Shown piece by piece: positions 20,553 to 56,646 of a stretch of DNA of 64,000 bases. Positions within the stretch are counted from its first letter, which is position 1. Each line of letters begins with the position of its first letter. The DNA lies in NCBI GenBank assembly GCA_030429345.1, contig JAUIFJ010000001.1, positions 282,457-346,456 on the forward strand, given 5' to 3'. A program made the translations under genes and the position numbers. The DNA comes from a bacterium. GTDB taxonomy: Bacteria > CAIWAD01. The notes below the pieces were generated by a model that was not told the DNA's origin, did no database searches, and saw nothing but the letters and a program-made list of their open reading frames with translations.

Positions 20553-22187
20553 ATGCTGACCCGCATCCACATCCGCCACTATGCTTTGATCGAGCTGCTG
20601 GACCTGCAGCTTCCCGGGGGCTTCGTCTCGATCACCGGGGAGACGGGGGCGGGGAAGAGCATGCTGCTCTCGGCGATCGCCGCCTGCCTGGGCGGGAAGG
20701 TGCCGAAGGAGCACCTGCGCGGGCAGGGCGAGACGGTGCTCTGCTGCACCTTCCGCGGCCCGGGGGGCAACGGGAAAGCGCCGGAGACGGTCTGCGAGCG
20801 CGTGATCCGCGCCGATGGCCGCAGCCGCTATCGGCTGAACGGGGAGGCCGCCACCCAGAAGGAGATCAAGGCCCTCGCCGGCGGGCTGCTGCGCCTGCAC
20901 GGCCAGCGCGACCAGCTGCGCCTGCTGCAGCCGGAGATGCACCCCGCCCTGCTGGACCAGCTCCCCGCCCTGGCGCCGAAGCGCGAGGCGCATCGCCTGG
21001 CTCACAGCGCCTGGCAGGCCGCGGTCAAAGAGGCCGCCGAGCTTGCCCGCAAGCTGGAACGCAGCCGCGAACAGCGTGAGCTCTGGAGCTACCAGCTCCG
21101 CGAGCTGGAGGAGCTGAACATGCGCCCCGGCGAGGACGAGGAGCTGAGCGAACGCCAGAGTGTTCTGTCACACACCGCCGAGATCAAGGCCGGTTGCTAC
21201 ACGGCGGCCCAGGAGCTGGAGGAGGGCGAAGAAGCCCTGGGGGATCGCCTGGCTGCCCGCCTGCGCGAGCTGGAGAAGCTGGCTGCCTGGGACCGTGAGC
21301 TCGCCGAACCGCTGGAGCGCCTGCGCGAGGCCCAGCTGCAGATCCAGGAGGCCGCCCGTGCCCTCTCCGCCCATTCCGACCGCGTCGAGGACGACCCCGC
21401 CGAGCTGGCCAAGGTCGAGGAGCGCCTGGGCGAGCTGGACGCAATGATCCGCAAGTATGGCGGCACCCTGGACAACCTGCTTCGCGAACAGGCCAGCCTG
21501 GCCGAGCGCCTGGCCGGCCAGGACGACCTGGCCGAGCGCCTGCAGGCCGCCCGCCGCGAAGAGGAGCGTAGTCACACAGATCTGCTGAAGAAAGCCAAGG
21601 CGCTGGCCAAGGCCCGCCGCGCAGAGGCCCCGGAGCTCTGCCGGCGGATCAACGCCCTGCTGGCCGAACTGGGCATCACCGGGGAAGGCCTCTCCATCGC
21701 CTTCGAACCCCAGGAGCCGGAAGCCGAGGAAGGCCCCGAGCGCCCCAGGTTCCTCGTCGCCACCAACCCGGACACAGCGCCGGCCCCGCTGGAGGAGATC
21801 GCCAGCGGCGGGGAGCTTTCGCGCATCATGCTGGCCTTCCAGAGCGTGCTGGGGGAGGAAAGCCCCGGCGGCTGCCAGGTCTTTGACGAGATCGACACCG
21901 GCCTGTCCGGCCGCGCCGCCCGCGCCGTCGCCAGCCAGCTGGCCCGCCTGGCGGAGCGCCAGCAGGTGCTTTGCATCACCCACCTGCCCCAGATCGCCGC
22001 CGCCGCCGCGGAGCAGCTGGGCGTCGACAAGGACTTCGACGGGAAGCGCACCCGGATCACCATCCGCCGCCTGGACGAGCAGGAGCGCCTGCGCCACATC
22101 GCCCGCCTGCAGGCGGGAAAGGATGGCCCGGAGGAGCTCGCCGCGGCCAGGAGGCTGCTGGAAGGGAATCACCAGGCGGCAGAATAG
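20553..22187 (+). CDS. recN: DNA repair protein RecN
   Basis: This 544-residue SMC-like ATPase acts at double-strand breaks. Residues 1-150 carry the first half of the ABC head (IRHYALIELLDLQL, Walker A GETGAGKS at 29-36, then LHGQRDQLRLL, the family QH/D motif). A long coiled coil spans about 150-370. The second half has the ABC signature SGGELSR (about 417-423) and Walker B CQVFDEIDTGLSG (about 443-455), followed by ITHLPQIAA. It is close to the normal length (about 550). It is unusually rich in Glu, Arg and Leu in the coil. It lies alone, preceded by the repeat cluster at 20441 and followed after 147 bases by the first YciI-like gene. Confidence 0.95.
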   Translation: MLTRIHIRHYALIELLDLQLPGGFVSITGETGAGKSMLLSAIAACLGGKVPKEHLRGQGETVLCCTFRGPGGNGKAPETVCERVIRADGRSRYRLNGEAATQKEIKALAGGLLRLHGQRDQLRLLQPEMHPALLDQLPALAPKREAHRLAHSAWQAAVKEAAELARKLERSREQRELWSYQLRELEELNMRPGEDEELSERQSVLSHTAEIKAGCYTAAQELEEGEEALGDRLAARLRELEKLAAWDRELAEPLERLREAQLQIQEAARALSAHSDRVEDDPAELAKVEERLGELDAMIRKYGGTLDNLLREQASLAERLAGQDDLAERLQAARREEERSHTDLLKKAKALAKARRAEAPELCRRINALLAELGITGEGLSIAFEPQEPEAEEGPERPRFLVATNPDTAPAPLEEIASGGELSRIMLAFQSVLGEESPGGCQVFDEIDTGLSGRAARAVASQLARLAERQQVLCITHLPQIAAAAAEQLGVDKDFDGKRTRITIRRLDEQERLRHIARLQAGKDGPEELAAARRLLEGNHQAAE

Positions 22188-22334: not shown

Positions 22335-22631
22335 ATGCCCGACTGGCTCTATCGCATCCAACCCGTCCGCGACGACATGCTCTCTGCCGGCCCGACCGAA
22401 GAGGAACAGGCCCTGGTGGCGGAGCACTTCGAGTACTTGAAGGCCCTGCACGAGAAGGGTGTGGTGCAGCTGGCGGGACGGACATTGACAGAGGATTCGG
22501 CTTCCTTCGGGATTGTGCTGTTCAAGGCGGAATCGAAGGAAGAGGCGCTGCGGTTGATGCGGGAGGATCCGGCGGTGAAGGGGAGGGTGTTTCGGGGAGA
22601 GGTGTTTGAGTTTGGGGTGGCGATTTCCTGA
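22335..22631 (+). CDS. YciI-like small protein, copy 1
   Basis: This 98-residue protein has the dimeric ferredoxin-like pattern of YciI (AEHFEYLKALHEKGVVQLAGRT, SFGIVLF, then SKEEALRLMREDPAVK and GEVFEF). The biochemical role of such proteins is mostly unknown. It starts MPDWLYRIQP at ATG 22335. It differs from copy 2 (23950) at about 11 of 98 positions, so the two are recent paralogues. Further remnants occur at 27781, 34962 and 36446. Each accessory module from here to 36.7 kb is bounded by one of these sequences. Confidence 0.75.
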   Translation: MPDWLYRIQPVRDDMLSAGPTEEEQALVAEHFEYLKALHEKGVVQLAGRTLTEDSASFGIVLFKAESKEEALRLMREDPAVKGRVFRGEVFEFGVAIS

Positions 22632-22690
22632 GAAGCCACAGTTCTAACAAACTGTAGAAAACGGGAAACCCTATGCATTTTCCTCGCGAT

Positions 22691-22720
22691 ATGTATAGAG
22701 AATTGTGATTATCTATACAT
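22691..22720 (+). promoter_or_regulatory. perfect inverted repeat, likely operator of the Fic gene
   Basis: ATGTATAGA (22691-22699) and TCTATACAT (22712-22720) form a perfect 9-bp inverted repeat with a 12-base AT-rich spacer. It ends 27 bases before the Fic start codon. The position suits repression of the Fic gene, possibly by its own winged-helix domain. Confidence 0.55.
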
Positions 22721-22747
22721 GATTGAACTCGAACAACGGAATATCGA

Positions 22748-23815
22748 ATGGATCAATCGCTAAAATCTCTTGCAGATCTGAATCCAGGTCGATTCAAGCA
22801 ACCAGAACTGATGCTTGCCTTGAACGCCGCCAGCCGTCAACTCGCCGAGTTGAAGGGGGTGGTGGCGACCATGCCGAATCAACGCATTCTGATCAGTACT
22901 CTCGGTCTTCAGGAAGCCAAGGACAGCTCGGAAATCGAGAACATCGTTACAACCCACGATGAGCTCTATCGGAATGCGGCGTTTCCTGAACGCGCCACAA
23001 GCCCGGAAGCGAAGGAAGTCGCTCGCTATCGCCAGGCGCTTCAGATCGGCTACGATGCGGTACAGAAAACCGGCATCCTGAGCAATCAACACATTCTGAG
23101 CATCCAGGCCGTACTAGAAGAGAATGACGCGGGATTCCGGAAACTGCCCGGAACGAAACTGCTGACACCGACAGGTCGTGTAGTGTACACACCTCCGCAA
23201 GAGCCGGCTGTGATCCTGGCTTTGATGGATGATCTGGAGCAGTTCATTCATCGGCCCGAGCTCTTCGATGCAGATCCCTTGATCAAGATGGCCCTGATGC
23301 ATCACCAGTTCGAGAGCATCCATCCCTTCTATGATGGCAATGGCCGCACAGGGAGAATCCTGAATGTGCTCTACCTGGTCAAGGAGGGCCTGCTGGATTT
23401 CCCCGTGCTCTACCTCAGCCGGTACATCGTCGAACACAAGGCGGAGTATTACAGACTTCTGCAGGCTGTCCGCGAAGCGGATGCATGGGAGGAATGGGTG
23501 GTATACATGTTGCTGGCTGTCCAGGCCACCGCCCGGCAAAGTGTCCTGACGGTCAAGGCCATTCGTGAGCTGCTGCTGGGAGCCAAACACCGCATCCGCG
23601 AGCGCTTTCGCTTCTACAGCCAGGACCTGATCAACAACCTGTTCTCCTATCCCTACACGCGGATCGAGTACCTGCAGCAGGACTTGCGCGTATCCCGGCT
23701 GACGGCGGCCTCCTATCTGAACCAGCTGACGGAGGCGGGGTTCCTGCGGAAGGAAAAGGTGGGGCGGTCCAACTACTACATCAATGAACCGCTGCTGCGC
23801 ATACTGGTAGGGTAA
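22748..23815 (+). CDS. Fic-domain AMP-transferase with winged-helix domain
   Basis: This 355-residue Fic protein transfers AMP (or a related nucleotide group) to a protein hydroxyl. The active-site motif HPFYDGNGRTGR (His192-Arg203) is complete. Just after residue 50 lies SSEIEN, which fits the class II inhibitory motif (S/T)xxxE(G/N), so the enzyme is probably self-inhibited. Residues about 285-355 look like a winged helix (YLQQDLRVSRLTAASYLNQLTEAGFLRKEKVG). The overall plan matches the common Fic/DUF4172-like regulators that sit alone in accessory regions. It may bind the inverted repeat upstream. It is flanked on both sides by intact YciI-like copies. Confidence 0.9.
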   Translation: MDQSLKSLADLNPGRFKQPELMLALNAASRQLAELKGVVATMPNQRILISTLGLQEAKDSSEIENIVTTHDELYRNAAFPERATSPEAKEVARYRQALQIGYDAVQKTGILSNQHILSIQAVLEENDAGFRKLPGTKLLTPTGRVVYTPPQEPAVILALMDDLEQFIHRPELFDADPLIKMALMHHQFESIHPFYDGNGRTGRILNVLYLVKEGLLDFPVLYLSRYIVEHKAEYYRLLQAVREADAWEEWVVYMLLAVQATARQSVLTVKAIRELLLGAKHRIRERFRFYSQDLINNLFSYPYTRIEYLQQDLRVSRLTAASYLNQLTEAGFLRKEKVGRSNYYINEPLLRILVG

Positions 23816-23899
23816 GGACCGGGGACGGCAGAAGGTGTACCTCCCGGATCTAGCCGGGCCGGAATGAGACTGATATGAACTGCGGGTTAGCAAGTCCTA

Positions 23900-23930
23900 T
23901 TACGCATGTTGCGTTACGCAAAGGGCGTAA
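23900..23930 (+). promoter_or_regulatory. tandem TTACGC/GCGTAA palindromes upstream of YciI copy 2
   Basis: TTACGC-N5-GCGTTA (23900-23916) and TTACGC-N5-GCGTAA (23914-23930) overlap by three bases. They are repeated base for base in layout at 34912-34942 before the YciI remnant there. This is the pattern of a cooperative dimer-binding operator. Confidence 0.55.
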
Positions 23931-23949
23931 TTCTGCGGGAGACTGAACC

Positions 23950-24246
23950 ATGCCCAACTGGCTTTATCGCGTCCAACCCCTCCGCGACGACATGCTCTCC
24001 GCCGGCCCGACCGAAGAAGAACAGGCGCTGGTGGCGGAGCATTTCGAGTACTTGAAGACCCTGCATAAACAGGGCGTGGTGCAGCTGGCGGGACGGACAC
24101 AGACGGAGGATTCGGCCTCCTTCGGGATCGTGCTGTTCCGGGCGGAATCGAAGGAAGAGGCGCTGAGGGTTATGCGGGAGGATCCGGCGGTGAAGGGGCG
24201 CGTGTCTCGGGGGGAGGTGTTTGAGTTTGGGATGGCGATTTCCTAA
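23950..24246 (+). CDS. YciI-like small protein, copy 2
   Basis: This intact 98-residue paralogue of the gene at 22335 begins MPNWLYRVQPLRDDM and ends FGMAIS. The DNA is conserved over the whole reading frame. GCGGGAGA lies about 10 bases before the ATG, and the double palindrome at 23900-23930 lies 20 bases before that. YciI proteins form small alpha/beta dimers; conserved His (in AEHFEY) and Asp/Glu residues are present, but no reaction can be named. It is followed after 33 bases by the SNF2 gene, so it may share a transcript with it. Confidence 0.75.
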   Translation: MPNWLYRVQPLRDDMLSAGPTEEEQALVAEHFEYLKTLHKQGVVQLAGRTQTEDSASFGIVLFRAESKEEALRVMREDPAVKGRVSRGEVFEFGMAIS

Positions 24247-24279
24247 TGGTATTAGGGAATAATTATCAGGATCGCTGGA

Positions 24280-26946
24280 ATGGATAACTTGCGGCTGACT
24301 CCCTCAGGCAGACTGGAGTTGACGGGTTCGTCGACGATGACCGACAGGATCTCCCGCCGACGTGCTCGGGCCTTTGAACGGGGGAACGGTCACGGAATCC
24401 TGCATCTGGTGCTGCATGAAGCTGAATCGCCGTTGAGTGCCCAACTCGCCTATTGGAGAGGGTTGGGCAAGCAGCTCCTTGGCGAAGCCTGTCAACACAG
24501 CGACCCACTGGCGCTGACCGAATTGCGTATCCCCGCAGCGGACGGCGCCTGGTGTGCGACATTCGCCGCGGGCGTTCCTCCGATGATCGGTGCGGAATTG
24601 ATGTCGGCTGCGCGAATCGAAGAGCTGTGGAAGGACACGGGGGATGCCCTGCGGGCGGCAATCGGCAATCGGGATCTGGCGTCCCTGCTGTCGAAGACGA
24701 AAAGCCAATGGCACACCGTCGGCCGTGTCTGCCTGCATTTGGCTGAGCACAAGACGGATGCCAGGCGACCCTTTGCCTTTCTCGCGACCTACATCAGCGG
24801 CCTGACGAATGACGGTACGCCGCGGCATATCCCGCTGAAGAACGTCATGTTGGAGTTTCGCGGAAAGGGAGCTAGAGGGAAGTTGCTGGCGCTGCTGGCT
24901 CCCTTGTCCAGGGCCGCAGAGCAAAGCGCCTTTCTTCGCCACCAGCTCGAATCGGGCCACATTCATCAACCTCAGGCCTGGACATCCAGCAAAGCGCACG
25001 ACTTTCTGCGTGATACGTCTGCATATGAACAAGCCGGTCTGTTGGTTCGCGCGCCGGACTGGTGGACGACCCGGAAGGTGCATCCAGCCGTTCGCGTATC
25101 CCTTGGTGAGAAGAAACCAGCCACCCTCGGTCTTTCCTCCTTGCTGGATTTCGATGTGCGCGTCTGCCTGGATGGGCAGCCTCTGCGCGATGCCGAACTG
25201 CGTCAGCTGCTTACAGCGGGAAAAGGACTTGTGCACCTTCGCGGCCGCTGGGTAGAGGTGGATGCAGATCGTCTTGCGGCCGTACTGAATCACTGGCGCG
25301 AGATCGATTGCCTTGCCCGCTCCGAAGGGATCCCTTTCTCGCAAGCCATGCGATTGTTGGCGCGTGCGGGGCTGGAGGAGCATTCCACACATTCGGAAGA
25401 AGACACAAAGAGCTGGGCCGAGTTCGTCGCCGGCAAGTGGCTGCGGAAACGCCTGCAGGCTCTGCGTGATCCGGCCGGCGAAAAAGCATACTCTGGCAAT
25501 GCGGGGCTGCGCACGACATTGCGCCCCTATCAGAAGTCGGGTTGGCGATGGCTGGAGTCATTGCGCCAGCTGAGACTGGGCGGCTGTCTGGCCGACGACA
25601 TGGGCCTTGGAAAGACGATTCAAGTGCTGGCTCTCTTGTCCCATTGCCGGAAACGGAAGCTGCCGGGAACGGATTTGCTGGTGCTGCCTGCCTCACTGAT
25701 CGAGAATTGGCGGATCGAGATCGAACGCTTTGCGCCGGGCTTGAAGGCGCTGATCGCTCATCCCTCACACTGTCCCTCGAGGGAGCTGGAGAAGCTGAAA
25801 CACAAAACGGTTCTGTCTCACGATCTTGTGCTGACCAGCTACGCCACCGTCAAGAGATTGCCCTGGATGCATGACATCCCATGGCGCCACCTCATCCTGG
25901 ATGAAGCCCAGGCGATCAAGAATCCGGGTTCCGCGCAGACGAGGCAGGTCAAGGCCCTGCAGGCCGAATGGCGCCTTGCCTTGAGCGGCACGCCGATCGA
26001 GAATCGCATGGGGGATCTGTGGTCAATCTTCGATTTTCTGAACCCCGGTTTGCTGGGTTCAGCGGCGGCCTTCAAGCGGTTCAGCAAAGGGCTCGAGAGC
26101 GGCGATCAGGGCTATGCCCCTCTGCGTCGCCTGGTTCAGCCCTACATCCTGCGTCGACTGAAGACGGACAAGTCCGTGATCCAGGATTTGCCGGACAAGA
26201 CGGAAGTTCGCGCCAGCTGCTTGCTCAGTCGACGCCAGGCGGCACTGTATGAGCAGAGCGTGCGCGAGCTGGAAAAGGAGTTGTCGAAGGTTGCCGGCAT
26301 CAAGCGCAGAGGACTGGTGCTGTCCTACCTGATGCGCTTCAAACAGATCTGCAACCATCCTTCCCAATGGCTGGGCGATGGTGAATTCGAGGCAAAGGAC
26401 AGCGGCAAGTTCGGCCGTCTGCGGGAGATCTGTGAGACAATCGCTATGCGGCAGGAGAAGGTGCTGGTCTTCACGCAGTTCAAGCAGATCACGAATGCCC
26501 TTTCATGCCAACTGGCGGAGACTTTCGGACACGAAGGATTCGTGTTGCACGGGGGTACTTCAGTGCGCAAGCGGCAGCAGTTGGTGCAGGCCTTCCAGGA
26601 GGACGAGCACAGGCCGTACATGGTGCTGTCGCTGAAAGCGGGCGGAAGCGGATTGAACCTGACGGCGGCGTCTCACGTCGTCCATTTCGATCGATGGTGG
26701 AATCCCGCCGTCGAAGACCAGGCCACCGACCGCGCCTTCCGTATCGGCCAGAAGCGAAACGTCCTGGTGCACAAGTTCGTTTGCCAGGGGACGGTCGAGG
26801 ACCGGATCGACGAGATGCTGACCAGCAAACGTTCCCTCTCCGACGCGATCCTGAAGAAAGGCGCCGAGAAGGCGTTGAGTGAAATGGGGGACGATGAGTT
26901 GCTCGATTTCGTAGCCCTGGATGTTGGACGCATTTTCCAGCGATGA
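24280..26946 (+). CDS. SNF2-family helicase-like ATPase
   Basis: This 888-residue protein has an N-terminal region (about 1-400) of the SNF2-associated type found in bacterial HepA/SNF2 proteins. It then has a complete Swi2/Snf2 double RecA core: Walker A DDMGLGKT (about 440-447), DEAQ (about 540, ILDEAQAIKNPGS), SGTPIENR, LVFTQF, and motif VI ATDRAFRIGQ. Such enzymes translocate on double-stranded DNA and remodel protein-DNA complexes. It is followed 30 bases later by a SWIM-finger gene, a partnership seen repeatedly in bacteria. The pair lies between YciI copy 2 and a YciI remnant, in an accessory block with other helicases, so a role in defence or plasmid control is plausible but unproven. 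Confidence 0.9.
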   Translation: MDNLRLTPSGRLELTGSSTMTDRISRRRARAFERGNGHGILHLVLHEAESPLSAQLAYWRGLGKQLLGEACQHSDPLALTELRIPAADGAWCATFAAGVPPMIGAELMSAARIEELWKDTGDALRAAIGNRDLASLLSKTKSQWHTVGRVCLHLAEHKTDARRPFAFLATYISGLTNDGTPRHIPLKNVMLEFRGKGARGKLLALLAPLSRAAEQSAFLRHQLESGHIHQPQAWTSSKAHDFLRDTSAYEQAGLLVRAPDWWTTRKVHPAVRVSLGEKKPATLGLSSLLDFDVRVCLDGQPLRDAELRQLLTAGKGLVHLRGRWVEVDADRLAAVLNHWREIDCLARSEGIPFSQAMRLLARAGLEEHSTHSEEDTKSWAEFVAGKWLRKRLQALRDPAGEKAYSGNAGLRTTLRPYQKSGWRWLESLRQLRLGGCLADDMGLGKTIQVLALLSHCRKRKLPGTDLLVLPASLIENWRIEIERFAPGLKALIAHPSHCPSRELEKLKHKTVLSHDLVLTSYATVKRLPWMHDIPWRHLILDEAQAIKNPGSAQTRQVKALQAEWRLALSGTPIENRMGDLWSIFDFLNPGLLGSAAAFKRFSKGLESGDQGYAPLRRLVQPYILRRLKTDKSVIQDLPDKTEVRASCLLSRRQAALYEQSVRELEKELSKVAGIKRRGLVLSYLMRFKQICNHPSQWLGDGEFEAKDSGKFGRLREICETIAMRQEKVLVFTQFKQITNALSCQLAETFGHEGFVLHGGTSVRKRQQLVQAFQEDEHRPYMVLSLKAGGSGLNLTAASHVVHFDRWWNPAVEDQATDRAFRIGQKRNVLVHKFVCQGTVEDRIDEMLTSKRSLSDAILKKGAEKALSEMGDDELLDFVALDVGRIFQR

Positions 26947-26976
26947 TGTGCGCGGATCTATCATGTAAGAGGCCGT

Positions 26977-27783
26977 ATGGGCTGGTATGACTACGGGCCG
27001 CGGCGCGATGCCGTGACCGTTGCGGAGCTGCGCGCCAAGGCAGAGCGCAAGATCAAGCGCTTGCAGGAGAAGGGGCAGCAACTGCAACCGGTTCGGATTG
27101 AAGGGAGGACGATCTCTCGCAGTTTCTGGGGCAAGGCATGGTGCACGAACCTGGAACGCTACAGCGACTTTTCGAACCGCCTTCCCCGCGGACGGCGCTA
27201 TGTCGTACACGGGACTGTGATCGATCTCCGCATCGAAACCGGACGTGTGCAGGGTCTGGTTGTGGGAAGCAGCCTCTATGAAGTCGATATCCGGATTGCT
27301 CCCTTGAACGCGGACCAGTGGACAGGGATCCTCGAGCAATGCCGGGGCAGCATTCAAACCCTGGTCGAGCTCTTGAGGGGCGAGATCAGCGCTGCCGTGA
27401 TGCAGATCGTAACACGTGAAGGATCAGGACTGTTTCCGTCGCCCTCGGAAATCCAGTTGGAGTGCACTTGTCCGGACTGGGCAGACATGTGCAAGCATGT
27501 AGCCGCCGTTCTCTACGGAGTCGGCGCTCGGCTGGACGAGAATCCCGCACTGCTGTTCACGCTGCGCGACGTGGATCCTGCCGAGCTGGTGGATCGCGCC
27601 GCGGACAGCGCGCTTGTATACGGCGAGTTGAAGGTTGAGAGCCGCTTGAAGACGAATGACCTTTCAGCGGTTTTCGGCATTCACATCGAGGAAATCGAGG
27701 GGGACCCCCCTGCGCTTTCTCCTTCGCTGTTCAAGCGGCCGCCAAGGACTGCAGGTCGAAGGAAAACGCGGTCCGGCACCTGA
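26977..27783 (+). CDS. SWIM zinc-finger protein
   Basis: This 268-residue protein contains one SWIM finger: Cys163, Cys165, Cys172 and His174 in LECTCPDWADMCKHVAAV (the CxC...CxH pattern). The N terminus (YDYGPRR..TVAELRAKAERKIKRLQEKG, FWGKAWC..LERYSDFSNRLPRGR) is characteristic of bacterial SWIM proteins that accompany SNF2 ATPases. SWIM fingers bind DNA or protein partners, so it probably targets the SNF2 motor. Its TGA (27781-27783) falls on the first bases of a YciI remnant, so the present C terminus may have been set by a recombination event. Confidence 0.85.
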   Translation: MGWYDYGPRRDAVTVAELRAKAERKIKRLQEKGQQLQPVRIEGRTISRSFWGKAWCTNLERYSDFSNRLPRGRRYVVHGTVIDLRIETGRVQGLVVGSSLYEVDIRIAPLNADQWTGILEQCRGSIQTLVELLRGEISAAVMQIVTREGSGLFPSPSEIQLECTCPDWADMCKHVAAVLYGVGARLDENPALLFTLRDVDPAELVDRAADSALVYGELKVESRLKTNDLSAVFGIHIEEIEGDPPALSPSLFKRPPRTAGRRKTRSGT

Positions 27784-27812
27784 TGCAGGATCATCCGGTG
27801 GCGATTTCCTGA
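27781..27812 (+). pseudogene. YciI-like remnant (copy 3, about 32 bases)
   Basis: TGATGC, AGGATC and CCGG followed by GGTGGCGATTTCCTGA correspond to the MREDPAV segment and the exact C-terminal coding end (VAIS-stop) of copy 1 (22614-22631), with the middle deleted. On its own the match is short, but it lies exactly where a border copy is expected. Confidence 0.45.
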
Positions 27813-27937
27813 AATCAACGCCGGCGTTCCAAAGCGAACGCAGACTTGCTATTTTTGTCCTCGTTGATCCAAGCCCCAAGGCCAGAGGACAAGATGTTGC
27901 CGGCATCATCGACTGATCTTCTTCTTTTCTCCAAACG

Positions 27938-30700
27938 ATGGTTTCTCCCCGTAGTCCTTTGGGAACTCCTGGAAACAATCTCCATCGTCCGGTCGCGCGG
28001 ATGAGCATAGCCGTCAACCGCGTGCTGGCTGGGTTGCCGCTGCTGGCCCTCGACATCGAGAGCGACGGCAAGGTGATCCACGAAGCCGGCTGGGCGACGG
28101 CCAGCGAACACGGCCACCTGGCCGGCGAAGGGCGTATACGCGACTTCCTTGGAAGGCTTGATGAGCCGGAAAACCGGCAGACCATTCTGGTGGGGCACAA
28201 CCTCCGTGCCTGGGATCTCCCGATCCTGCAAAAGCGCTTCCCCGAACTTGCCCTTGCGGATCACGAACTGATCGATACCTTGGAACTCCAGGCTGGACTG
28301 ACTCCCATTCGGCAGAACCTGAAGCTGTCGTCGTCCCACTCTCCGGACAAGGATGCCCGGGACGCACTGGAGTTGTTTGTCAGCCAGTTGGCGCTGGGGG
28401 CTCTTGCCGCTGATGCGCGCTTTGATCGTGTACGACAGGAGCTATCACAGCTCCCGCTCACGGAATGGCGGCGCCGGAACCAGCAGCTCTTGAGACCGGA
28501 GAGGATTCACCCACTGACGGAAGAGGTTGTGAGCGCCTACCGGACTAGCCCCCCGGAAGATCGCCCGGGTCTGCTTCTGTGTCCGGATCACCTTCTACAG
28601 GATTTGGCCTCCCTCCTGCCGGCCGCGGTGCTCGCAGAAGGATCGAGCCTTTGCATCCACCCGGAGGCATCTCACGCCGATCAGCCCTGGATACGAGATG
28701 TTTCGGAATCCGGCCGATCCAACCATCCGCGTGCACTCAATCCCTGGTTGGTTCACAATCTTCATACGATGGGAGCCGTAGATACCCGCGAGTGCACAGA
28801 TTGCCCGATCACTTCGTGCGCCCGCCATCCGCAAGGCGCCCCCCTGCAACTGGCCAGCTGGAAGAAGCTGTTGCATCCTGCCGTGCGGAAGGCCCGCAGG
28901 GATGTGGATTCCGCAAGAACCTGGCTATTGGCGGACTATCCAATGTCCTATCTCGGGGTCCATGAGGTCAAACGGCTGGGATCGCCGCTGGATGTGTTAC
29001 AGCGATTACCCCACGGCTGGTTGATGGGACTGCGTCCGGGGCATCGGCTGGTGGGGTTGCGGGAAGCTGATCTGGGCAGCTTGGGGATCGACGAGCACCC
29101 TCCGGATGCTGTGCATTGGTTGGAACGGCGACTGGATGGAGTCACTTCTATCTTCGCCGCTCCTGGAAAGGATGCTCTTCCCGCCGGTGAACCAGAGAGA
29201 TTCTTCTTCACCTTCCAGAATGTAGCCAGGCATGTAATCCATTCTATTTCGGAGTTCGTGCCGACGGATTTGCAACCGAAGGCGAATCCTCTCGGGACGC
29301 TGAATCCTGCAGCACCGGCACGGGCCCTGTATTGGGAACAGTTTCTGCTGCGCCTTCTGGTTGTGATCCAGAAGCCATCCCGCACGCTGCTCCTGCTGCA
29401 GTCTGCGGGTGAACGGAGTGCATTGGGCGCGTGCCTGCAGCAGCTGCTTCCGCCCGATGTGTCCGTGGTTTGGGACAAAAGTTTGTCGGCCAGCCTAAGG
29501 GTGCTTGCGCAGGCGAATCACAGCATTGCGCTTGTTTCCGCCGCCACGCACATTGATCTGGCGCGTCACGGCCTGCAGGGGATCACGGTGATACTGGAGG
29601 CCTTGCCTCTGGAGCGCATGCTGTTGCTCTCCGAGCAATCCCGTTCGTACATCGGCCGGGCCACGGACGCAGGCGCGGACAGCAAGGCCGATCTACAGTC
29701 CATCGAGATTGAGCAGGAAGACGTACTGCAGCCCGCCGAGGAAGATCCGGTTGAGGGCAGCGGTGCGGATTTCAGCCCTAGCTGGACGCTGAGCGCCGCG
29801 TCTGCTGCCAGCCTGCCCTGGTTGAGGGCGTTGTGCCATGCAACACGATCCGCGAAGGCCGACCGCCTGCTTGTCATGGACCCCCGCGTCGAAGCCATGC
29901 CATCCGTCGATCCGCGGCTGCAGATCCAGACCTTATCCGGCGAATTGCACGACAGCGCTCCCCTGCAGAAACAAGTCGCCGCGTGTTGCAGGGAGCAATT
30001 CGGCCCTAAGGCACTTGCTGAAGATATTTCACAGGAGCTTCTGCAGCAGTGGCAGAAACACATCGAATCCGCTTTTCTGGCCGGCAAGGGTGCTGACGGC
30101 GGCCCGGGCCGCCTGCGGGAACAGCAGCTGCCCTACTTCGAGCCGGTCATCGCCGGCGAGCACGATGTGATCGTCTCACTGCCCACCGGCGGCGGCAAGT
30201 CGCTGATCTTCCAGGGGCCGGCCCTGCTCAAAGGCGCGGCAACGGGACGCCTCAGCATCGTGATCGCGCCGCTCAAGGCCCTGATGGTGGACCAGGTGCG
30301 CCAGCTGGAAGAGTTGGGCTTCGTCAATGTGGTCGAGGCGATCACAGGCGACCTGGACCGCTTCGAACGAGAGGACATCTATCGGCGGCTGCGCTCCGGG
30401 GAACTCTGGATGATCTACATCTCGCCGGAGCGTCTGCGCAGCAGGGCCTTTCGCAGGGCGCTGGAGGAGCGCCTGCGAGAAGACGGCCGAGCCGAGTACT
30501 GGATCTTCGACGAGGCACATTGTTTGAGCCAGTGGGGCCTCGACTTCCGACCGGATTATTTTGCGGCGGCTCACAACATTCGTGAGATCCGTCGCATGGA
30601 ACCGGGTGAGCAGGCTCCTGTTCTGTTCTTCTCCGCCACCCTGACCTCGCAGGTGCGCGAGGAGATCAAACACATCTATGGCAGCCATGGGCCTGCTTGA
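27938..30700 (+). CDS. DEDD exonuclease-RecQ helicase, N-terminal part (frame broken at 3' end)
   Basis: This 920-residue product has an N-terminal exonuclease-like domain (DIE at 39-41, VGHNLRAWDLP at about 83-93, and a distal Asp in DKDARDALE). A long middle region contains a Cys cluster (CTDCPITSC). The first RecA lobe of a RecQ helicase follows, with Walker A LPTGGGKS (about 745-753), DEAH at about 857 (FDEAHCLSQWGLDFRPDY) and FFSATLT. It stops at 30700, just before the second helicase lobe, which continues in the +1 frame in the next gene. ATG 28001 is an alternative start that trims 21 residues and still keeps the exonuclease motif. The sequence shows either two coupled halves of one enzyme or one broken gene. 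Confidence 0.8.
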   Translation: MVSPRSPLGTPGNNLHRPVARMSIAVNRVLAGLPLLALDIESDGKVIHEAGWATASEHGHLAGEGRIRDFLGRLDEPENRQTILVGHNLRAWDLPILQKRFPELALADHELIDTLELQAGLTPIRQNLKLSSSHSPDKDARDALELFVSQLALGALAADARFDRVRQELSQLPLTEWRRRNQQLLRPERIHPLTEEVVSAYRTSPPEDRPGLLLCPDHLLQDLASLLPAAVLAEGSSLCIHPEASHADQPWIRDVSESGRSNHPRALNPWLVHNLHTMGAVDTRECTDCPITSCARHPQGAPLQLASWKKLLHPAVRKARRDVDSARTWLLADYPMSYLGVHEVKRLGSPLDVLQRLPHGWLMGLRPGHRLVGLREADLGSLGIDEHPPDAVHWLERRLDGVTSIFAAPGKDALPAGEPERFFFTFQNVARHVIHSISEFVPTDLQPKANPLGTLNPAAPARALYWEQFLLRLLVVIQKPSRTLLLLQSAGERSALGACLQQLLPPDVSVVWDKSLSASLRVLAQANHSIALVSAATHIDLARHGLQGITVILEALPLERMLLLSEQSRSYIGRATDAGADSKADLQSIEIEQEDVLQPAEEDPVEGSGADFSPSWTLSAASAASLPWLRALCHATRSAKADRLLVMDPRVEAMPSVDPRLQIQTLSGELHDSAPLQKQVAACCREQFGPKALAEDISQELLQQWQKHIESAFLAGKGADGGPGRLREQQLPYFEPVIAGEHDVIVSLPTGGGKSLIFQGPALLKGAATGRLSIVIAPLKALMVDQVRQLEELGFVNVVEAITGDLDRFEREDIYRRLRSGELWMIYISPERLRSRAFRRALEERLREDGRAEYWIFDEAHCLSQWGLDFRPDYFAAAHNIREIRRMEPGEQAPVLFFSATLTSQVREEIKHIYGSHGPA

Positions 30701-33700
30701 ACCCGGGGAAGCCCTCTCGCCGGAGCGCGAGAACCTGCGCATCGTGCCCGTCCGCGAGGACCGGCTGGAGGACGGGTACGCGAAGGCCGGCGCGGAGCAC
30801 GCCATTTCCCGGCAGGAACTGAAGGATCTGGTCGGCGAGGAATTCGCCAGCGCGAAGCCGCGCATCCTCTTTCGCTTGTATCACCTGGCCTTGCAGATCC
30901 GCTCCCGGCTGGATCCCTCGCAGAGTACGGCACTGGCCTTTGCCCGGACACAACGCAACACCAGCTGGTACGCCGGCATTCTTGGACGGCTGCTGCATTC
31001 CCTGGGCGACACGGAAATGCAGGTCGGCCACTTTCATGCCGGTCTGTCTGCCGAAGAGCGGGAAAGCATCTACTCCCGTTTCAAGGATCCGGCCGATCCC
31101 CTGAAGATTCTCGTCTGCACCAAGGCCTTCGGCATGGGAATGGACATACCCAACATCCATTTGCTGGCGCACCTGGACTGCCCCGCTGCCCTGGAGGACT
31201 ACCTGCAGGAGATCGGCCGAGCCGGCCGGGATCCGAGGCTGCTGCGCAATCTGGGGCTGAATGCCGCCAATCCCATTCCCTGCCTGTTCTACTTCAGCCA
31301 ACGGGAGTTCGAGGAGGCGCGCAACTTCCTGCGCAAAGGGCGTCTGGCCTTTCCGCAGCTGAGCGACTACATGCAACTGCTGCGTGCCTACCGCGGCCAA
31401 TTCGCGCGGCCGGGGGGAGGCGAGCAAGGGCAACGAAAGTTCGTCTACAATCTGAACTACATCGAGAGCGTCAAGGGAAAGGACTGGGGCGATGTGCGCC
31501 AGAGCATGGCCTTTCATTGGCTGGAGCGGCTGAATCGGATTGAACTGGGCTACTATGTCCTTCCCGTGATCGGAATCCTCGAGCTGCAGCCGGCGCCGCC
31601 GACAGAGGATACGCCTCTCGCCCGATTGCACGCTTTCCTGCTGGAGCAGAAGGCCGCGCTGCGGTCCTCAACGCGCGAGAGTGCGCAACTGCATGTCCGG
31701 ACCAGCGACCTGCTGCGCATCTGCGGCAGCATGGATGCTTTGTATGAGTGCTTGAAAGAGGGGCGCCGCCTCGGCCTGTTTCGTGTCAGCCAACGTGTAC
31801 ACATGGAGCTACAGCGAAACCAGGGGGCGCAGGCGTTGCGGAGCGAGGCGGAGACGCGACTGGAAGAGGGCAAACTGCCCTGGCTGCTGGAACTACGCTT
31901 CCAGTTCGTGCTGCAGCGCCTGCGCGGCATGAGTGTATCACAGGAGTTTCAGGTCACCCGCGGGGAGCTGCAGGAACAGTTGCAGCGCTTCGCCGAGGAG
32001 GAGAGCGAGGCTGTCACCGCGGACTGGATGACGGATGCCAGCGCCACTCGCCTGCAGGAGCGGCAGGCCAGCTGGCTCCAGCAGACAACCCGGCTCTTCG
32101 TGTCGCGGCAGGGGCCGCTCTTCCGCCTGTTTCGCGCCTTTGAGGGCTGCCGCATCCGCACGGGTTTCGACCCTGTCTACGGCATTGGTTACTCCTTCGA
32201 GCTGCAACATCCTGGTGTCGTCCAACAGGTCTCGCGGCTAAGAGACCTGTGTGTCGAGCTGCTGCGGGATCTGCTGCATCCCGGGAAGGAGCCGCTGGAA
32301 CTGGTGGACTGGCTGAACAAGCTTGAGTGCAAGCAGGAAGAGCTTGAGACTGCCGTCGGTTTCCTGCACCGCTGCGATCTGCTGGAGCAATCGAGTCTTT
32401 TCGCGGGCGCTATCGAAATCAAATTCCTCTCGGATCGCCGCATCGAAGGGGAGAAGGAACCGGACCGGACTGTCGCGGCCGACTTCGAGGAGAACGCCCG
32501 GCTGAAAGAGTGCCGCCTCTCGGCCCTGGAGCTGTTGGCCTGGCTGAAGTCGGACGGGGAGCGGCGTGAGCTGGTCGAGGCCTACTTCAAGGCAGGCAAT
32601 GCCGAGGAGATCGTGATTCTGCTGGATCGTCTTGTAGCACAGGGCAATTGGAGCGATGAGGAAGACCCCCAGGTCAAGAAGATCCTGTCGGTCCTGAAAG
32701 AGCAAGGACTGGAGGATCACCACGGTCGGCTGAACAAGGAGCAGCGAGCCATTGTCGAAGCCGGTCCCGATTGCTGCGGCGTCGTGCGGGCGGGGCCGGG
32801 ATCCGGCAAGACGCGCGTGATCATGGAGCGCGCCGTCTGGCTGGTGGAAAAGCACAACGTCGACCCCTCGCAGATCCTGCTGTTGGCCTACAACCGCGCC
32901 GTGCGCATCGAGCTGCAGCGACGCCTGAAAGCGTACTACAAGGAACTGGGCCTGCAGGGCTATATCGAGAAGTTGAGAGTCAACACGATCCACGGCTTCG
33001 CCCGGCGCATCTGCGGCGACCGCGTGACCTACTGCAGCCCCGAGGAGGTCGCGGAGCTGTTGCGATACATCGACCAGAAGTACCCGCGCTGGATCGATGA
33101 CTGGCAGTCCATGAACCTGTTGCATTCCCGTGATACGCTGGATCCGAAGTTCGCGACGACGGTCCGGCAAGGTGATGGAAGCGCGCCCCAACGGGGATGG
33201 AAACTGCCGCTTGAACTGTGGATTCCGCTGGCCACGAAACTTCTCTCCGAAACACCGCAGAGGAACACGCGAACCGTCCTGATGATCGACGAAATCCAGG
33301 ACCTGACCGGCCCGATGATCCGGCTTCTGGCAGCCCTGCTGAAGAATCCGGCTGTGCGACTGGTCGCTGTCGGGGATCCCGACCAGTCGATCTACGGCTA
33401 CGAACGCAAGCGGCACGGGAACCCGCTGGCACCCGAGCCCATGCTGGAGCAACTCGAGCAGCGTCTCGCGAAGCAGGGCGGCGAGCTGCCTGAACGGCTG
33501 CTGCGCCAGAATTATCGCAGCCTGGGGGCGATTCTGCATGAAGCACAGAAAATGCGCCCGAACCCCTATCGCCTGCAGGCCACCCGAACACAGGCGGAAC
33601 TGTTGCCGGTCGGAATCAAACCCGTACAGAGCGTGTCACAAAAGGCCGGCACCGTATGTGATCACCTCTTCCGGCTGCTGGACGAGAAAGCGAAACGCAA

Positions 33701-34793
33701 GGGAAAGCTTTCCCACTGGCGGAGCTTCGCCGTGCTCTGCCGAACCAACCAGGAGCAGGACAACATACTGCGACAGCTGCGTGGGGATGATCGGTTACGC
33801 AATCTGAAACAGATGGGCAGGGTGCAACTCTACAGTGACCACCTGCTGCAACACGCCGCGCAGAGCAGAGAGTTTCGCGCGATGAAGGAGGCCATACGAC
33901 CCCTGCCCGCGCGTTTCAGTGTCGAGGAACTGAACACGGCCCTGCGCACCGTGCTGTCGAAGGGGCGGGGGATTCTTTCCGGCTACTTGCTGCAGCAGGG
34001 CCGCCACCTGCTGCTGGACCTGGCGCGGAGCTTTCGTGACGAGGTCGAACAAGAGGACCTGCTGAACGAGTTCGAGGATCATGCCCGCGAGAAGGAAGCC
34101 CTGGTGGAAACCCTGGGGCGGATCCGGCAGGCTCAACACGCGGACTCGGTGACGATCACCGTCGGCACGATCCACCGCAGCAAGGGCCTGGAGTACGATG
34201 TGGTGCTGCTGCCTTCCTCGGAGTTGAACCTGCCCGGCGACGAGGAGGAGCTGGAGGAGGAGCGCCGCCTGCGCTATGTGGCGATCACTCGTGCGCGTAC
34301 ACATGTGCTGCAGATCATCGGCGATCGGGAAACCGCGCTGCAGGAGGGGCGGGGCTGGCATGGCAAGTTTAGCCCCCGTCCGCCGGCCATCCGCGACGGG
34401 CAGGATCTGTTCTTTCAATCCTGCCTGCTGGAGCCGGATTGGCGGGCCAGCGGAATGAATTCGCTGCGAGAACACCAGGATTGTTTGCATCACACCTTGC
34501 CGGACAAGGCACCCCTGCAGCGGAAGGGGAGGCACTTCGTCTACATGGACAGGGAGCGCAAACGGGAGGTCATCGTCTGTCGCTGCTCGAAAGCCTACAT
34601 GGAGCGCATTGACTCCTGGCGGAAAGGCCGGGAACAGGAGGCGATCCGGCAGGACTATCGTGTCTCGGCCGTGCTCTGGCAGGAAGTGGATGAAGTCTTT
34701 GTCGAGCAGCGCAGCCAGTACGCTGCGATTCCTGCGGACGTGCGCGAGGTCGGCGGGTTCTGGTGGGTGGTGGTGGAAGGAGGGGAGGAGTAG
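30678..34793 (+). CDS. RecQ second lobe fused to UvrD-type helicase, C-terminal part
   Basis: This 1371-residue product begins in the linker between RecQ lobes. Residues about 55-210 form lobe 2 (TALAFARTQRNT, ILVCTKAFGMGMDIPN, EIGRAGRD). After a winged-helix/spacer region (about 220-680) comes a complete UvrD/Rep-type superfamily 1 helicase, with Walker A AGPGSGKTR (about 707), MIDEIQDLTG, GDPDQSIYGYE, GTIHRSKGLEYD and YVAITRAR. ATG 30678 lies inside the previous gene, with a 23-base overlap; a second ATG is at 30687. Together with the preceding frame it describes an exonuclease-RecQ-UvrD protein of roughly 2280 residues. It is presumably a DNA-processing enzyme in repair or defence. Both frames are intact over long distances. 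Confidence 0.85.
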   Translation: MAAMGLLEPGEALSPERENLRIVPVREDRLEDGYAKAGAEHAISRQELKDLVGEEFASAKPRILFRLYHLALQIRSRLDPSQSTALAFARTQRNTSWYAGILGRLLHSLGDTEMQVGHFHAGLSAEERESIYSRFKDPADPLKILVCTKAFGMGMDIPNIHLLAHLDCPAALEDYLQEIGRAGRDPRLLRNLGLNAANPIPCLFYFSQREFEEARNFLRKGRLAFPQLSDYMQLLRAYRGQFARPGGGEQGQRKFVYNLNYIESVKGKDWGDVRQSMAFHWLERLNRIELGYYVLPVIGILELQPAPPTEDTPLARLHAFLLEQKAALRSSTRESAQLHVRTSDLLRICGSMDALYECLKEGRRLGLFRVSQRVHMELQRNQGAQALRSEAETRLEEGKLPWLLELRFQFVLQRLRGMSVSQEFQVTRGELQEQLQRFAEEESEAVTADWMTDASATRLQERQASWLQQTTRLFVSRQGPLFRLFRAFEGCRIRTGFDPVYGIGYSFELQHPGVVQQVSRLRDLCVELLRDLLHPGKEPLELVDWLNKLECKQEELETAVGFLHRCDLLEQSSLFAGAIEIKFLSDRRIEGEKEPDRTVAADFEENARLKECRLSALELLAWLKSDGERRELVEAYFKAGNAEEIVILLDRLVAQGNWSDEEDPQVKKILSVLKEQGLEDHHGRLNKEQRAIVEAGPDCCGVVRAGPGSGKTRVIMERAVWLVEKHNVDPSQILLLAYNRAVRIELQRRLKAYYKELGLQGYIEKLRVNTIHGFARRICGDRVTYCSPEEVAELLRYIDQKYPRWIDDWQSMNLLHSRDTLDPKFATTVRQGDGSAPQRGWKLPLELWIPLATKLLSETPQRNTRTVLMIDEIQDLTGPMIRLLAALLKNPAVRLVAVGDPDQSIYGYERKRHGNPLAPEPMLEQLEQRLAKQGGELPERLLRQNYRSLGAILHEAQKMRPNPYRLQATRTQAELLPVGIKPVQSVSQKAGTVCDHLFRLLDEKAKRKGKLSHWRSFAVLCRTNQEQDNILRQLRGDDRLRNLKQMGRVQLYSDHLLQHAAQSREFRAMKEAIRPLPARFSVEELNTALRTVLSKGRGILSGYLLQQGRHLLLDLARSFRDEVEQEDLLNEFEDHAREKEALVETLGRIRQAQHADSVTITVGTIHRSKGLEYDVVLLPSSELNLPGDEEELEEERRLRYVAITRARTHVLQIIGDRETALQEGRGWHGKFSPRPPAIRDGQDLFFQSCLLEPDWRASGMNSLREHQDCLHHTLPDKAPLQRKGRHFVYMDRERKREVIVCRCSKAYMERIDSWRKGREQEAIRQDYRVSAVLWQEVDEVFVEQRSQYAAIPADVREVGGFWWVVVEGGEE

Positions 34794-34911
34794 TCGGGAT
34801 GACTAGAACAGAGGAGCACACTCGTACAACTCTTTCTCAAGCTGGACCAAGTGATTCCTGGACTTTGTGGGCACGGGGTTGGAACATACTGACCGACGGT
34901 CGCCTTCCCGG

Positions 34912-34942
34912 TTACGCATGTTGCGTTACGCAAGGAGCGTAA
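34912..34942 (+). promoter_or_regulatory. tandem TTACGC/GCGTAA palindromes upstream of YciI remnant 4
   Basis: This has the same double palindrome and the same spacing as at 23900-23930, including the 5-base ATGTT spacer and the following CTGCGGGAGA leader. It shows that the duplicated unit included its control region. Confidence 0.55.
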
Positions 34943-34961
34943 ATCTGCGGGAGATTGAACC

Positions 34962-35145
34962 ATGCCCGACTGGCTCAATCTCACCCCACCCGTCCGCGAT
35001 GACATGCTCTCCGCCGGCCCGACCGAGGAAGAACAGGTCCTGTGGGTGATGCGGGAGGACCCCGCTGTGAAAGGGGCGCGTGTTCCAAGCAGAGCTCTTT
35101 CCCTTCGGGATCGCCTTGCCACAGGAGGAGAAGGACACAGTATGA
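34962..35145 (+). pseudogene. YciI-like pseudogene (copy 4)
   Basis: The first 26 residues (MPDWLNLTPPVRDDMLSAGP, then TEEEQV) match copies 1 and 2. About 48 codons are then missing, and the frame resumes at VMREDPAVKG. A shift near 35076 moves the C-terminal GRVFQAELFPFGIALP into the +1 frame, where it ends at TGA 35143-35145. The remaining frame runs on, in frame, into the GH18 gene, which creates a false N-terminal extension of that protein. It is an internally deleted, frameshifted copy. Confidence 0.8.
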
Positions 35146-36509
35146 CACGGCAATACGCCATTGCCCTGGCCGGCATCCTGCTTGTCCTGCGCATCGGCAT
35201 CGGCCAGGAGCTGGGTGACCGGCTGCTGGTCGGCTACTGGCACAACTGGGGTTTCAGTCCCAACAGCTTGCAGTTAAGCGTACTTCCCGAAGCCTACGAT
35301 GTGATCAACATCTCCTTCGCCGTACCCACGGAGGCCTTCGGGGCGGAAATGGCCTTCGACCCGGACCCCGGCATCTACCCGGATCCGCAGGACTTCATCG
35401 ACGACTTCGCCGCCCTGCAGGCGGCCGGCAAGAAGGTGCTGCTTTCCATCGGCGGGGCCAATGCGGCGATCCATGTGGAAACGGAGCAGGACGCCGCCCT
35501 CTTCGCCCAGTCGATGGCGGGCCTGGTGATGCAGTACGGCTTCGACGGCGTGGACATCGACCTGGAAGGCGGCTCGCTGACCCTGGATGCCGGGGACAAT
35601 GACTACCGCAATCCGACGACGGCTCGCATTGTATACTTCATTGCCGGCATCGAAGCCCTGCTGCGGGCATTCCCGGAGGGGCTGATCCTGAGCATGGCCC
35701 CGGAAACCGCCTATGTGCAGGGGGCCTACAGCTTCTATGGGGGCATCTGGGGCGCCTACCTGCCCGTGATCCATGCCCTGCGGGAAGAGCTGAGCTACAT
35801 TCACGTGCAGCGCTACAACACGGGCTCCATGTTCGGCCGCGACGGGGTCGTCTACGAGCCGGCCACGGCCGATTTCCATGTGGCCATGGCGGACATGCTG
35901 CTTGCCGGCTTCGCCCTGCCCAACGGGGATGTCTTCGATCCTCTGTCACACGACCAGGTGCTGATCGGCCTGCCGGCCTCGACCCAGGCCGCCGGGACGG
36001 GGTATACGACACCGGCCATTGTGCACGACGCGCTGGATCACCTGCTGACGGGTGTGCCGGCACCGGGGTCATCGTACTCCCTGGCGCAGCCGGAAGGGTA
36101 CCCCTCCTTCCGCGGGCTGATGACCTGGTCCGTGAACTGGGATGTGGACAACGCGCTGGAGTTTTCCGGGAGCCACCGGGCCTACCTCGATGAGCTGGGG
36201 GAGCCAGCGGGAGTCATGCTGCGGATCCGGATCGTGGGACAATCGGTCCGGCTCGAGTGGGAGGATCCGGAGGAGCGGCTGTGGCAGGTGTACCGAAGCG
36301 ACGAGCCCTGGGGGATGGCGGACGCGGCCGAGTGGATCGGCAGCTCAGTGGAGGGGTGGTTTGTGGATGAGGGGGTGGATCTGGGAAGGCCGGGGTTCTA
36401 TTGGATTGAGTTGGGGGAGGAATGGCGGCGCCGGGGTTTCAGACGGTCTGTCCGAAAAGGATCAGGCCTTGTTGGGGCAGTGCTTCGGGCGCCTGAAGGC
36501 TATGTATAA
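35142..36509 (+). CDS. GH18-family glycoside hydrolase (chitinase-like)
   Basis: This 455-residue protein has a signal peptide (MTRQYAIALAGILLVLRIGIG) and a GH18 TIM barrel (about 25-350). Visible marks are LLVGYWHNW on strand 1, KKVLLSIGGAN, the catalytic DGVDIDLE (Glu is the acid/base), and LMTWSVNWD near the end. This family hydrolyses chitin or bacterial GlcNAc polymers. ATG 35142 was chosen because it follows ACAGGAGGAG and starts the signal peptide; the upstream in-frame extension is a YciI pseudogene. After WIELGEEWRRR (about residue 430) the frame runs into the next YciI remnant, so the last about 20 residues are probably not native. It is an odd neighbour for a defence island. Confidence 0.85.
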   Translation: MTRQYAIALAGILLVLRIGIGQELGDRLLVGYWHNWGFSPNSLQLSVLPEAYDVINISFAVPTEAFGAEMAFDPDPGIYPDPQDFIDDFAALQAAGKKVLLSIGGANAAIHVETEQDAALFAQSMAGLVMQYGFDGVDIDLEGGSLTLDAGDNDYRNPTTARIVYFIAGIEALLRAFPEGLILSMAPETAYVQGAYSFYGGIWGAYLPVIHALREELSYIHVQRYNTGSMFGRDGVVYEPATADFHVAMADMLLAGFALPNGDVFDPLSHDQVLIGLPASTQAAGTGYTTPAIVHDALDHLLTGVPAPGSSYSLAQPEGYPSFRGLMTWSVNWDVDNALEFSGSHRAYLDELGEPAGVMLRIRIVGQSVRLEWEDPEERLWQVYRSDEPWGMADAAEWIGSSVEGWFVDEGVDLGRPGFYWIELGEEWRRRGFRRSVRKGSGLVGAVLRAPEGYV

Positions 36510-36679
36510 AGGGCGTGGTATGGCTGGCGGGGCGGGCGCTGATGGTGGATTTGGCCTCTTTCGGGATTGTGCTGTTTCGGGCGGAGTCGGAAGAGGAGGC
36601 GCGAGGTTGATGCGGGTGGGTCCGGCGGTGAAGGGGAGGGTTTTTTGGGGGGGTGTTTGAGTTTCGGGTGATGATTTCT
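36446..36679 (+). pseudogene. YciI-like pseudogene (copy 5)
   Basis: Translating in three frames recovers the family. SEKDQALLGQCFGRLKAM and then VVWLAGRALMVDLASFGIVL, FRAESEEEAR correspond to residues about 20-72 of copy 1. LMR.GPAVKGRVF and FEFRVMIS finish the C terminus. At least two frameshifts and several substitutions make it non-functional. Its start overlaps the altered 3' end of the GH18 gene. Confidence 0.8.
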
Positions 36680-36860
36680 ATCAGCCACTCGATCTGAATC
36701 CCGAACCCCAATTTGTAGTGCTATACTTGCATCCAATCTAAACTGGCAATCAAGAACAAGTACCGACCCCAGTTGCATGCTTCCACCATATGAAGCCCCT
36801 GTCAACATGCAGTTCGCGGCTTAGTTCGATTCTGGTTGCTCATTCTGCACGGATACAATC

Positions 36861-39002: not shown

Positions 39003-39016
39003 GAAGCTGCAGATTT

Positions 39017-39748
39017 ATGGCAAAGCGAAATCAACGAGATGATTCAAATCCCTATTGGATATCATTCTCTGACTTGATGTCTGGGCTTCTTGTTGTGTTC
39101 ATTCTTGCAGCAGTAGCATTGATTATTGAGGTTACGGAAAGTGCACAGAAGATTGAATCAGATATACTAGCTGCAGAACGGGCGAGGCATGATATTCTAT
39201 TTGAGATTCGGGATAGACTGATTAAGCACAATATTGAAGTTCTAGTTGCTGATAATGAAACAGTACTGCGAATACCGGAAGAAACGCTTTCATTTGACTC
39301 TGATAGCTTCACTCTTCCTGCTTCAGAGTCGGCACAGTTGTCGATTCGGTTGATTGGGCAAGTACTATATGAAGCTATCACCAGTCCATTTGATTCTAGA
39401 AGTGAGGATAAGCGACTACGCTTTGAGTTGCTAGATACAGTGTTTATTGAAGGTCATACGGATAGTCAACCATCAACAAGAGTTAAAGGTAACTGGGGTT
39501 TGTCGACCTACCGTGCAATATCCCTTTGGGAGTTTTGGGAGGATTCGTTGATGGTCGATCCACCGTTCTCTGAACTGAAGAACTCATCTGATAGACGGTT
39601 GTTTTCTGTTAGCGGCTATGCTGCCACACGTAGGGCCAATGAAGAGGAAATCACTCCGGATGACCGGCGTGAAAATCGCAGGATAGACATTCGAATTACA
39701 GTGAAGCGCCCCAGGAGCAAAGAAATGGAGAAGTATCTATCCAGATAA
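39017..39748 (+). CDS. zorB: Zorya protein ZorB (MotB-like stator subunit)
   Basis: This 243-residue protein has one N-terminal membrane helix (about 19-39). Asp19 in FSDLMSGL is the expected proton-carrying residue of MotB-type stators. The OmpA-like peptidoglycan-binding domain (about 80-236) has IEGHTDSQPS, NWGLSTYRA and the basic DDRRENRRIDIRI helix typical of the fold. It anchors the ZorA5-ZorB2-type motor to the cell wall. It lies 14 bases after zorA. Its stop TAA (39746-39748) overlaps the region where zorC begins. Confidence 0.9.
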   Translation: MAKRNQRDDSNPYWISFSDLMSGLLVVFILAAVALIIEVTESAQKIESDILAAERARHDILFEIRDRLIKHNIEVLVADNETVLRIPEETLSFDSDSFTLPASESAQLSIRLIGQVLYEAITSPFDSRSEDKRLRFELLDTVFIEGHTDSQPSTRVKGNWGLSTYRAISLWEFWEDSLMVDPPFSELKNSSDRRLFSVSGYAATRRANEEEITPDDRRENRRIDIRITVKRPRSKEMEKYLSR

Positions 39749-39813
39749 AACTTGGTATTGACAATCTAGACTTTGCTCTGCCCCCAGATATTCTTGATGA
39801 GTATGTCATCCGT

Positions 39814-51794: not shown

Positions 51795-51875
51795 GCAAGA
51801 CGGTAAGAAGTCTATCTCTGACAGCTAAACCATATTTCGGGCTGTAACGAATTGAAAGATTGTACGTTGATTGTA

Positions 51876-51904
51876 TTGACAACGATACTTCCGCATGTTA
51901 CTCT
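51876..51904 (+). promoter_or_regulatory. sigma-70-type promoter before the 51937 gene
   Basis: TTGACA (51876-51881), a 17-base spacer and TACTCT (51899-51904) give a consensus-like promoter 33 bases before the start codon. TTGT/ACAA around the -35 box forms a small palindrome that could be an operator. Confidence 0.5.
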
Positions 51905-51936
51905 GTTGCGAAGTGAGAACGCTGCCGGAGGAGCAC

Positions 51937-52608: not shown

Positions 52609-52643
52609 GGTCGGATGATTGAATTGGATGGACAGTTTCTACA

Positions 52644-56637: not shown

Positions 56638-56646
56638 ACGGCCGCT

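Follow-up and report, generated by a model that had tools for sequence, protein, structure and literature searches.

YciI-like copies and remnants at the module borders of a defence island between recN and dnaE

Core defence hotspots flanked by conserved genes are an established finding, and their mode of assembly has been stated as open (PMC10250203). The core defence hotspots cDHS1 and cDHS2 of Pseudomonas aeruginosa, also described as additive flexible genomic islands, hold defence systems stacked between two core genes, with mosaic content and no annotated integrase or transposase (PMC10250203). In S. aureus, lateral transduction together with homologous recombination disseminates chromosomal defence genes, the homology lying in the recipient chromosome (PMC12829572). 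Here we describe a 38-kb defence island, bounded by recN and dnaE, in the 4.24-Mb genome of an uncultured bacterium, found in one genome so far and contained in the 64-kb stretch of DNA that was analysed as a whole (the window). It resembles cDHS1 and cDHS2 in each of the features named above; it differs from them in that one small gene recurs at the module borders in one third of the island, and our comparison of the locus covers one genome per species. As in integron cassette arrays, a repeated element separates modules that share one orientation; unlike those arrays, the locus has no attC site or integrase, the repeat is a protein-coding gene and the modules are multi-kilobase operons. The likeness to S. 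aureus lateral transduction lies in the integration of defence genes by recombination through shared sequence, which is our interpretation for this locus, whereas at this locus a repeated accessory gene within the island would supply the homology.

The recN-dnaE interval is a defence island in which several known systems are adjacent (SoFic, Zorya I, type I RM, HipBA and helicase-nuclease modules). It holds SoFic, an SNF2-SWIM pair, an exonuclease-RecQ/UvrD pair, GH18, Zorya I, type I RM with two HsdM, an AlbA_2 ATPase and HipBA (Table 1). The bordering core genes are neighbours without the island in the relative G003, a genome of the same family in which about 1.1 kb separates recN from dnaE, with a single outer-membrane protein (OMP) gene in between; the DnaE orthologue near recN in this genome (G003:C220, L047) is 62% identical. 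A second genome of the family (G002) carries other genes after recN, and the genes upstream of recN in the window are syntenic with G001:C78. No tRNA was found at the locus. The earlier note had seen no integrase here, and we likewise detected no integrase or transposase among the scanned and annotated proteins of the island.

Table 1. Coordinates of the features in the window
Feature	Position	Strand	Evidence or remark
RecN, core gene, left island edge	20553..22187	+	orthologues 48-49% identical in 3/3 family members
YciI-like copy 1 (c1), intact, 98 aa	22335..22631	+	PF03795 47 bits; 90% nt identity to c2
Module 1: Fic protein, SoFic type	22748..23815	+	PF13784, PF02661, PF21248; PADLOC SoFic 380 bits
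YciI-like copy 2 (c2), intact 98-aa CDS 23950-24246, plus upstream palindromic block TTACGCATGTTGCGTTACGCAA	23906..24246	+	repeat comparison, blastn
Module 2: SNF2 helicase (24280-26946), SWIM protein (26977-27783)	24280..27783	+	PF00176, PF12419, PF04434
YciI remnant copy 3 (c3), 3' end only, overlaps SWIM stop codon	about 27756..27812	+	gapped score 21.4
Module 3: DEDD-type exonuclease + RecQ DEAD half (27938-30700); RecQ Helicase_C half + UvrD (30678-34793)	27938..34793	+	profile searches
YciI remnant copy 4 (c4): 50-bp upstream block + codons 1-27, internal deletion, frameshift, diverged 3' end	34912..35145	+	repeat comparison, blastn
Module 4: GH18, apparent signal peptide, last codons run into c5	35142..36509	+	PF00704
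YciI remnant copy 5 (c5), 5'-truncated, frameshifted	about 36444..36680	+	blastn E=4e-42, 76% identical to c2
Zorya type I: ZorA 36861-39002, ZorB 39017-39748, ZorC 39814-41196, ZorD 41174-44620	36861..44620	+	
Rest of island: type I RM with two HsdM (44661-51794), AlbA_2/Schlafen ATPase (52644-54284), hypothetical genes, HipB/HipA (56647-58295)	44661..58295	+	
DnaE (DNA polymerase III alpha), core gene, right island edge	60317..63778	+	PF07733

We detected five YciI-like sequences, two intact and three broken, within 14.4 kb of the recN-proximal third of the island (22.3-36.7 kb, all on the + strand). The separators are confined to this third, and the remaining, distal 23 kb (Zorya I, type I RM and HipBA) has none. 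All five had been reported in the earlier note, where the position 27781 given for the third is that of the SWIM stop codon inside c3. Searches at the DNA and protein levels returned c1, c2, c4 and c5 as the only significant matches in their own genome (next best DNA match, E=0.005). A profile search with a narrower YciI alignment found three loci. The two intact copies are over the curated PF03795 cut-off of 24 bits (c2 at 45 bits) and are 89% identical in amino acids, with a dN of 0.063, a dS of 0.258 and a dN/dS of about 0.24; judged from these substitutions, both were under purifying selection.

The three remnants differ in what they have kept. The first, c3, was detected solely by gapped comparison within the window and not by whole-genome search; its score compares with a background maximum of 18.0 among 13,796 background 81-nt windows, is significant with one long gap permitted and is not above background when short gaps only are allowed. 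It has in common with c1 the 16-mer GGTGGCGATTTCCTGA, which occurs nowhere else in the window. In the second, c4, the upstream 50 bp and codons 1-27 show 86-89% identity and are followed by a deletion of about 45 codons. Its last codons, in the YciI frame, read VFQAELFPFGIALPQEEKDTV up to a TGA that overlaps the GH18 ATG, and this 3' end matches the family consensus ending, unlike the ending of c1, c2 and c3, which is VAIS and then stop (c2 reads MAIS). From its sequence, c4 looks like a mosaic with a copy-2-like start and a different YciI allele at the 3' end, a reading that concerns about 20 codons of a pseudogene and to which we give moderate weight. The third, c5, was also matched by tblastn (E=2.8e-9) and contains in-frame stops. 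By eye, the 3' halves of the YciI copies and the end of the GH18 gene (22450-22630 and 36300-36660) look strongly G-rich on the coding strand beside the 5' halves; the GC skew is 0.216 in 36001-37000.

Each of the five YciI sequences has a module border at or within it, a coincidence that the earlier note had suggested testing, and at c4 the stop codon itself overlaps the GH18 start. The GH18 gene most likely starts at 35142, directly after c4, rather than at the c4 ATG. With the overlapping exonuclease/UvrD pair omitted, there are six gaps between genes from recN to zorA, and five of them, all but the one within the SNF2-SWIM operon, contain a YciI sequence. The strict alternation with Fic, SNF2-SWIM, exonuclease-RecQ-UvrD and GH18 described in that note holds and can be extended by Zorya I, a fifth module after c5, so that each of the five YciI sequences sits upstream of one module. 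Also borne out was the placement of the SWIM stop codon and the GH18 3' end inside remnants, namely c3 and c5. Alignments with SWIM homologues extend to about residue 258 of the 268-residue protein. The homologue of GH18 in G004 has its end at the position of GFYWIELGEE in the window protein, whose last ~28 residues come from the junction and c5. At the SWIM/c3 and GH18/c5 joins the 5' portion of YciI has been lost, and as they stand now these joins are deletions and not clean crossovers.

Several modules have features of their own. The PADLOC scores of the Zorya type I genes are 624 bits for ZorA1, 286 for ZorB1, 575 for ZorC1 and 1257 for ZorD1, with ZorA to ZorD in order. The DEDD exonuclease label in module 3 comes from sequence motifs, without a Pfam match. 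In the same module the DEAD and Helicase_C halves of a RecQ-type helicase are divided between two overlapping ORFs (27938-34793), in which they are fused to an exonuclease-like region and to UvrD, respectively. The same split is present in G001:C82 (L062 6751-13592) at 33-35% identity, beside genes reading like type III CRISPR (Cmr) proteins, and a sequencing error is therefore an unlikely cause of it. Farther along the island, the one type I RM operon has two tandem HsdM genes (44661-47647), of which 152 nt are alignable at 71%.

Because the dS between c1 and c2 is 0.258, their neutral neighbours should remain clearly alike; a 100-bp flank at 15% divergence would score at least 50. The downstream flanks of c1 and c2 and the upstream flank of c1 scored no better than shuffled sequence (observed 7-14), and the downstream flanks of all five copies showed no mutual resemblance beyond shuffled controls. 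Upstream homology is left between c2 and c4 only, as a 50-bp block with an abrupt start at the same first base in both. With unalike downstream flanks and only this upstream likeness, the same gene therefore sits between sequences of different origin. These flanks bear on a rival history of ordinary local duplication, in which YciI was duplicated in tandem within the island, modules were later inserted between the copies by unrelated routes, the spare copies decayed and the appearance of a recombination logic is coincidental. The clustering of the copies on one strand, their decay and lack of a clear function, and the absence of separators from the rest of the island would all suit such a history. 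A tandem duplication copies the flanks too, however, and at a dS of 0.26 these would still be recognisable, yet such likeness is confined to the upstream block of c2 and c4; modules would also have to have been inserted four or five times independently, each time into a gap between YciI copies. Plain tandem duplication is thus disfavoured by near-identical c1 and c2 with unrelated flanks, and we regard it as possible but doubtful.

Within the upstream homology lies a palindromic block, TTACGCATGTTGCGTTACGCAA...GCGTAA, at 23906-23937 (upstream of c2) and 34912-34943 (upstream of c4), with two occurrences in the genome. The block resembles the operator of a helix-turn-helix regulator. We rejected the idea of a dispersed operator, the sites being present genome-wide at c2 and c4 only. 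The block and the gene could together form a unit of ~350 bp that is mobile or was mobilised and that inserted repeatedly in the intergenic gaps of an existing island. This would account for c2/c4 blocks that begin at the same base and for c2 ending at the gene end with unrelated sequence on both sides. We nevertheless hold such a unit to be unlikely, since inspection of the flanks by eye gave no terminal inverted repeats or consistent target duplications, c1 is without the upstream block, the 3' end of c4 reads like that of another YciI allele, joined to GH18, and copies were found neither elsewhere in the genome nor as relatives in phage and viral-contig collections.

Outside this locus, YciI is typically a lone gene. 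Among the other genomes with a YciI match (n=28), 27 have a single copy, and in the remaining one two copies lie 630 kb from each other; where inspected, the single genes of relatives are found among metabolic genes. One match of 44% is located on a Gemmatirosa megaplasmid. The closest outside relative, 58% identical, is on a contig labelled Methanomassiliicoccales (L053 10001-11970); an AbiEi/AbiEii-type toxin-antitoxin pair follows it 0.2 kb downstream, a single case and no pattern. The check suggested in the earlier note, whether YciI copies border other variable genes, came out negative in the organism's own genome and in the inspected relatives. None of the papers searched links YciI with defence islands.

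The module homologues were also without YciI in the searched flanks: 0/5 for SNF2-SWIM, a gene pair conserved in five other genomes, 0/1 for exonuclease-RecQ/UvrD, 0/2 for GH18 (G004 and G121) and 0/15 for Fic. None of the homologues examined had the shape of a YciI-module donor. YciI could in principle be a functional partner that travels as the first gene of each defence module, and the position of each YciI sequence directly upstream of a module, together with the overlap of the c4 stop with the GH18 start, would agree with this. However, with homologues elsewhere that do without YciI and with three of the five copies broken, we find such a partnership very improbable, and an intrinsic module partner was rejected on the YciI-less homologues.

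Modules between repeats would also result if the locus were a degenerate integron cassette array on which an integron integrase of the same genome acts. A full-length integron integrase (TIGR02249, 452 bits) is indeed encoded in the genome, at the end of a contig (G000:C58:12183-14551, L100), and the cassette-like gene adjoining it is followed by an attC-like site. This integrase is on a different contig from the array and is the only TIGR02249 match over the cut-off; a relaxed structural attC scan that recovers the C58 site gave 0 on both strands of the 64-kb window, blastn gave no match either, and the modules are operons of 1-7 kb and not single small cassettes. With no attC in the window and the integrase elsewhere, the integron reading was rejected, and we give it next to no credence.

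The unrelated flanks and the mosaic-looking c4 favour successive joining of foreign DNA within YciI over tandem duplication. We give about an even chance to a history in which the recN-proximal third of the 38-kb island grew step by step, as foreign DNA was joined within or at a YciI-like gene already resident there. The joining reaction was probably homologous recombination; this, the order of events and an outside origin of the modules are what we infer from the present arrangement. In the proposed scheme, an incoming fragment or circle would carry the upstream block, a YciI gene and a module, and its YciI would recombine with a resident copy in a RecA-type reaction. The module would thereby be inserted with a YciI copy remaining on either side, and repetition would build the array, in which dispensable copies would then decay by deletion and frameshift. 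The part of YciI in this scheme would be that of a supplier of homology.

In favour of stepwise joining we count the restriction of the copies to this locus, their unrelated flanks, the abrupt c2/c4 block, the c4 ending, the frames that end in c3 and c5, and the closeness of recN and dnaE in G003. Against it we count that the locus is seen with one set of modules only, in this strain and species, the missing YciI-module donor, the loss of the 5' parts of c3 and c5, the shortness of the c4 mosaic and the growth of the distal 23 kb without YciI. Of the earlier proposal of a cassette array grown by recombination, the part that concerns this locus is consistent with the borders in YciI, the unrelated flanks and the mosaic-looking c4. 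The wider part, a general system with the logic of an integron or hotspot, is not supported, given YciI copies that border no variable genes elsewhere in this genome or in the inspected relatives, the YciI-less module homologues, the absence of separators from the rest of the island and the lack of attC in the window. It is a decidedly unlikely generalisation that a small coding gene serves as a portable homology arm, through which modules are gained and lost by homologous recombination and enter at the recN end, as an integrase-free counterpart of an integron array.

Should the recN-proximal third have been built stepwise, the locus would speak to how integrase-free defence islands grow as arrays: scars of one gene at every border would let the order of accretion and its mechanism be read. 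They would also predict which modules are lost together, with Fic, which lies between two intact copies, the likeliest to excise as a unit.
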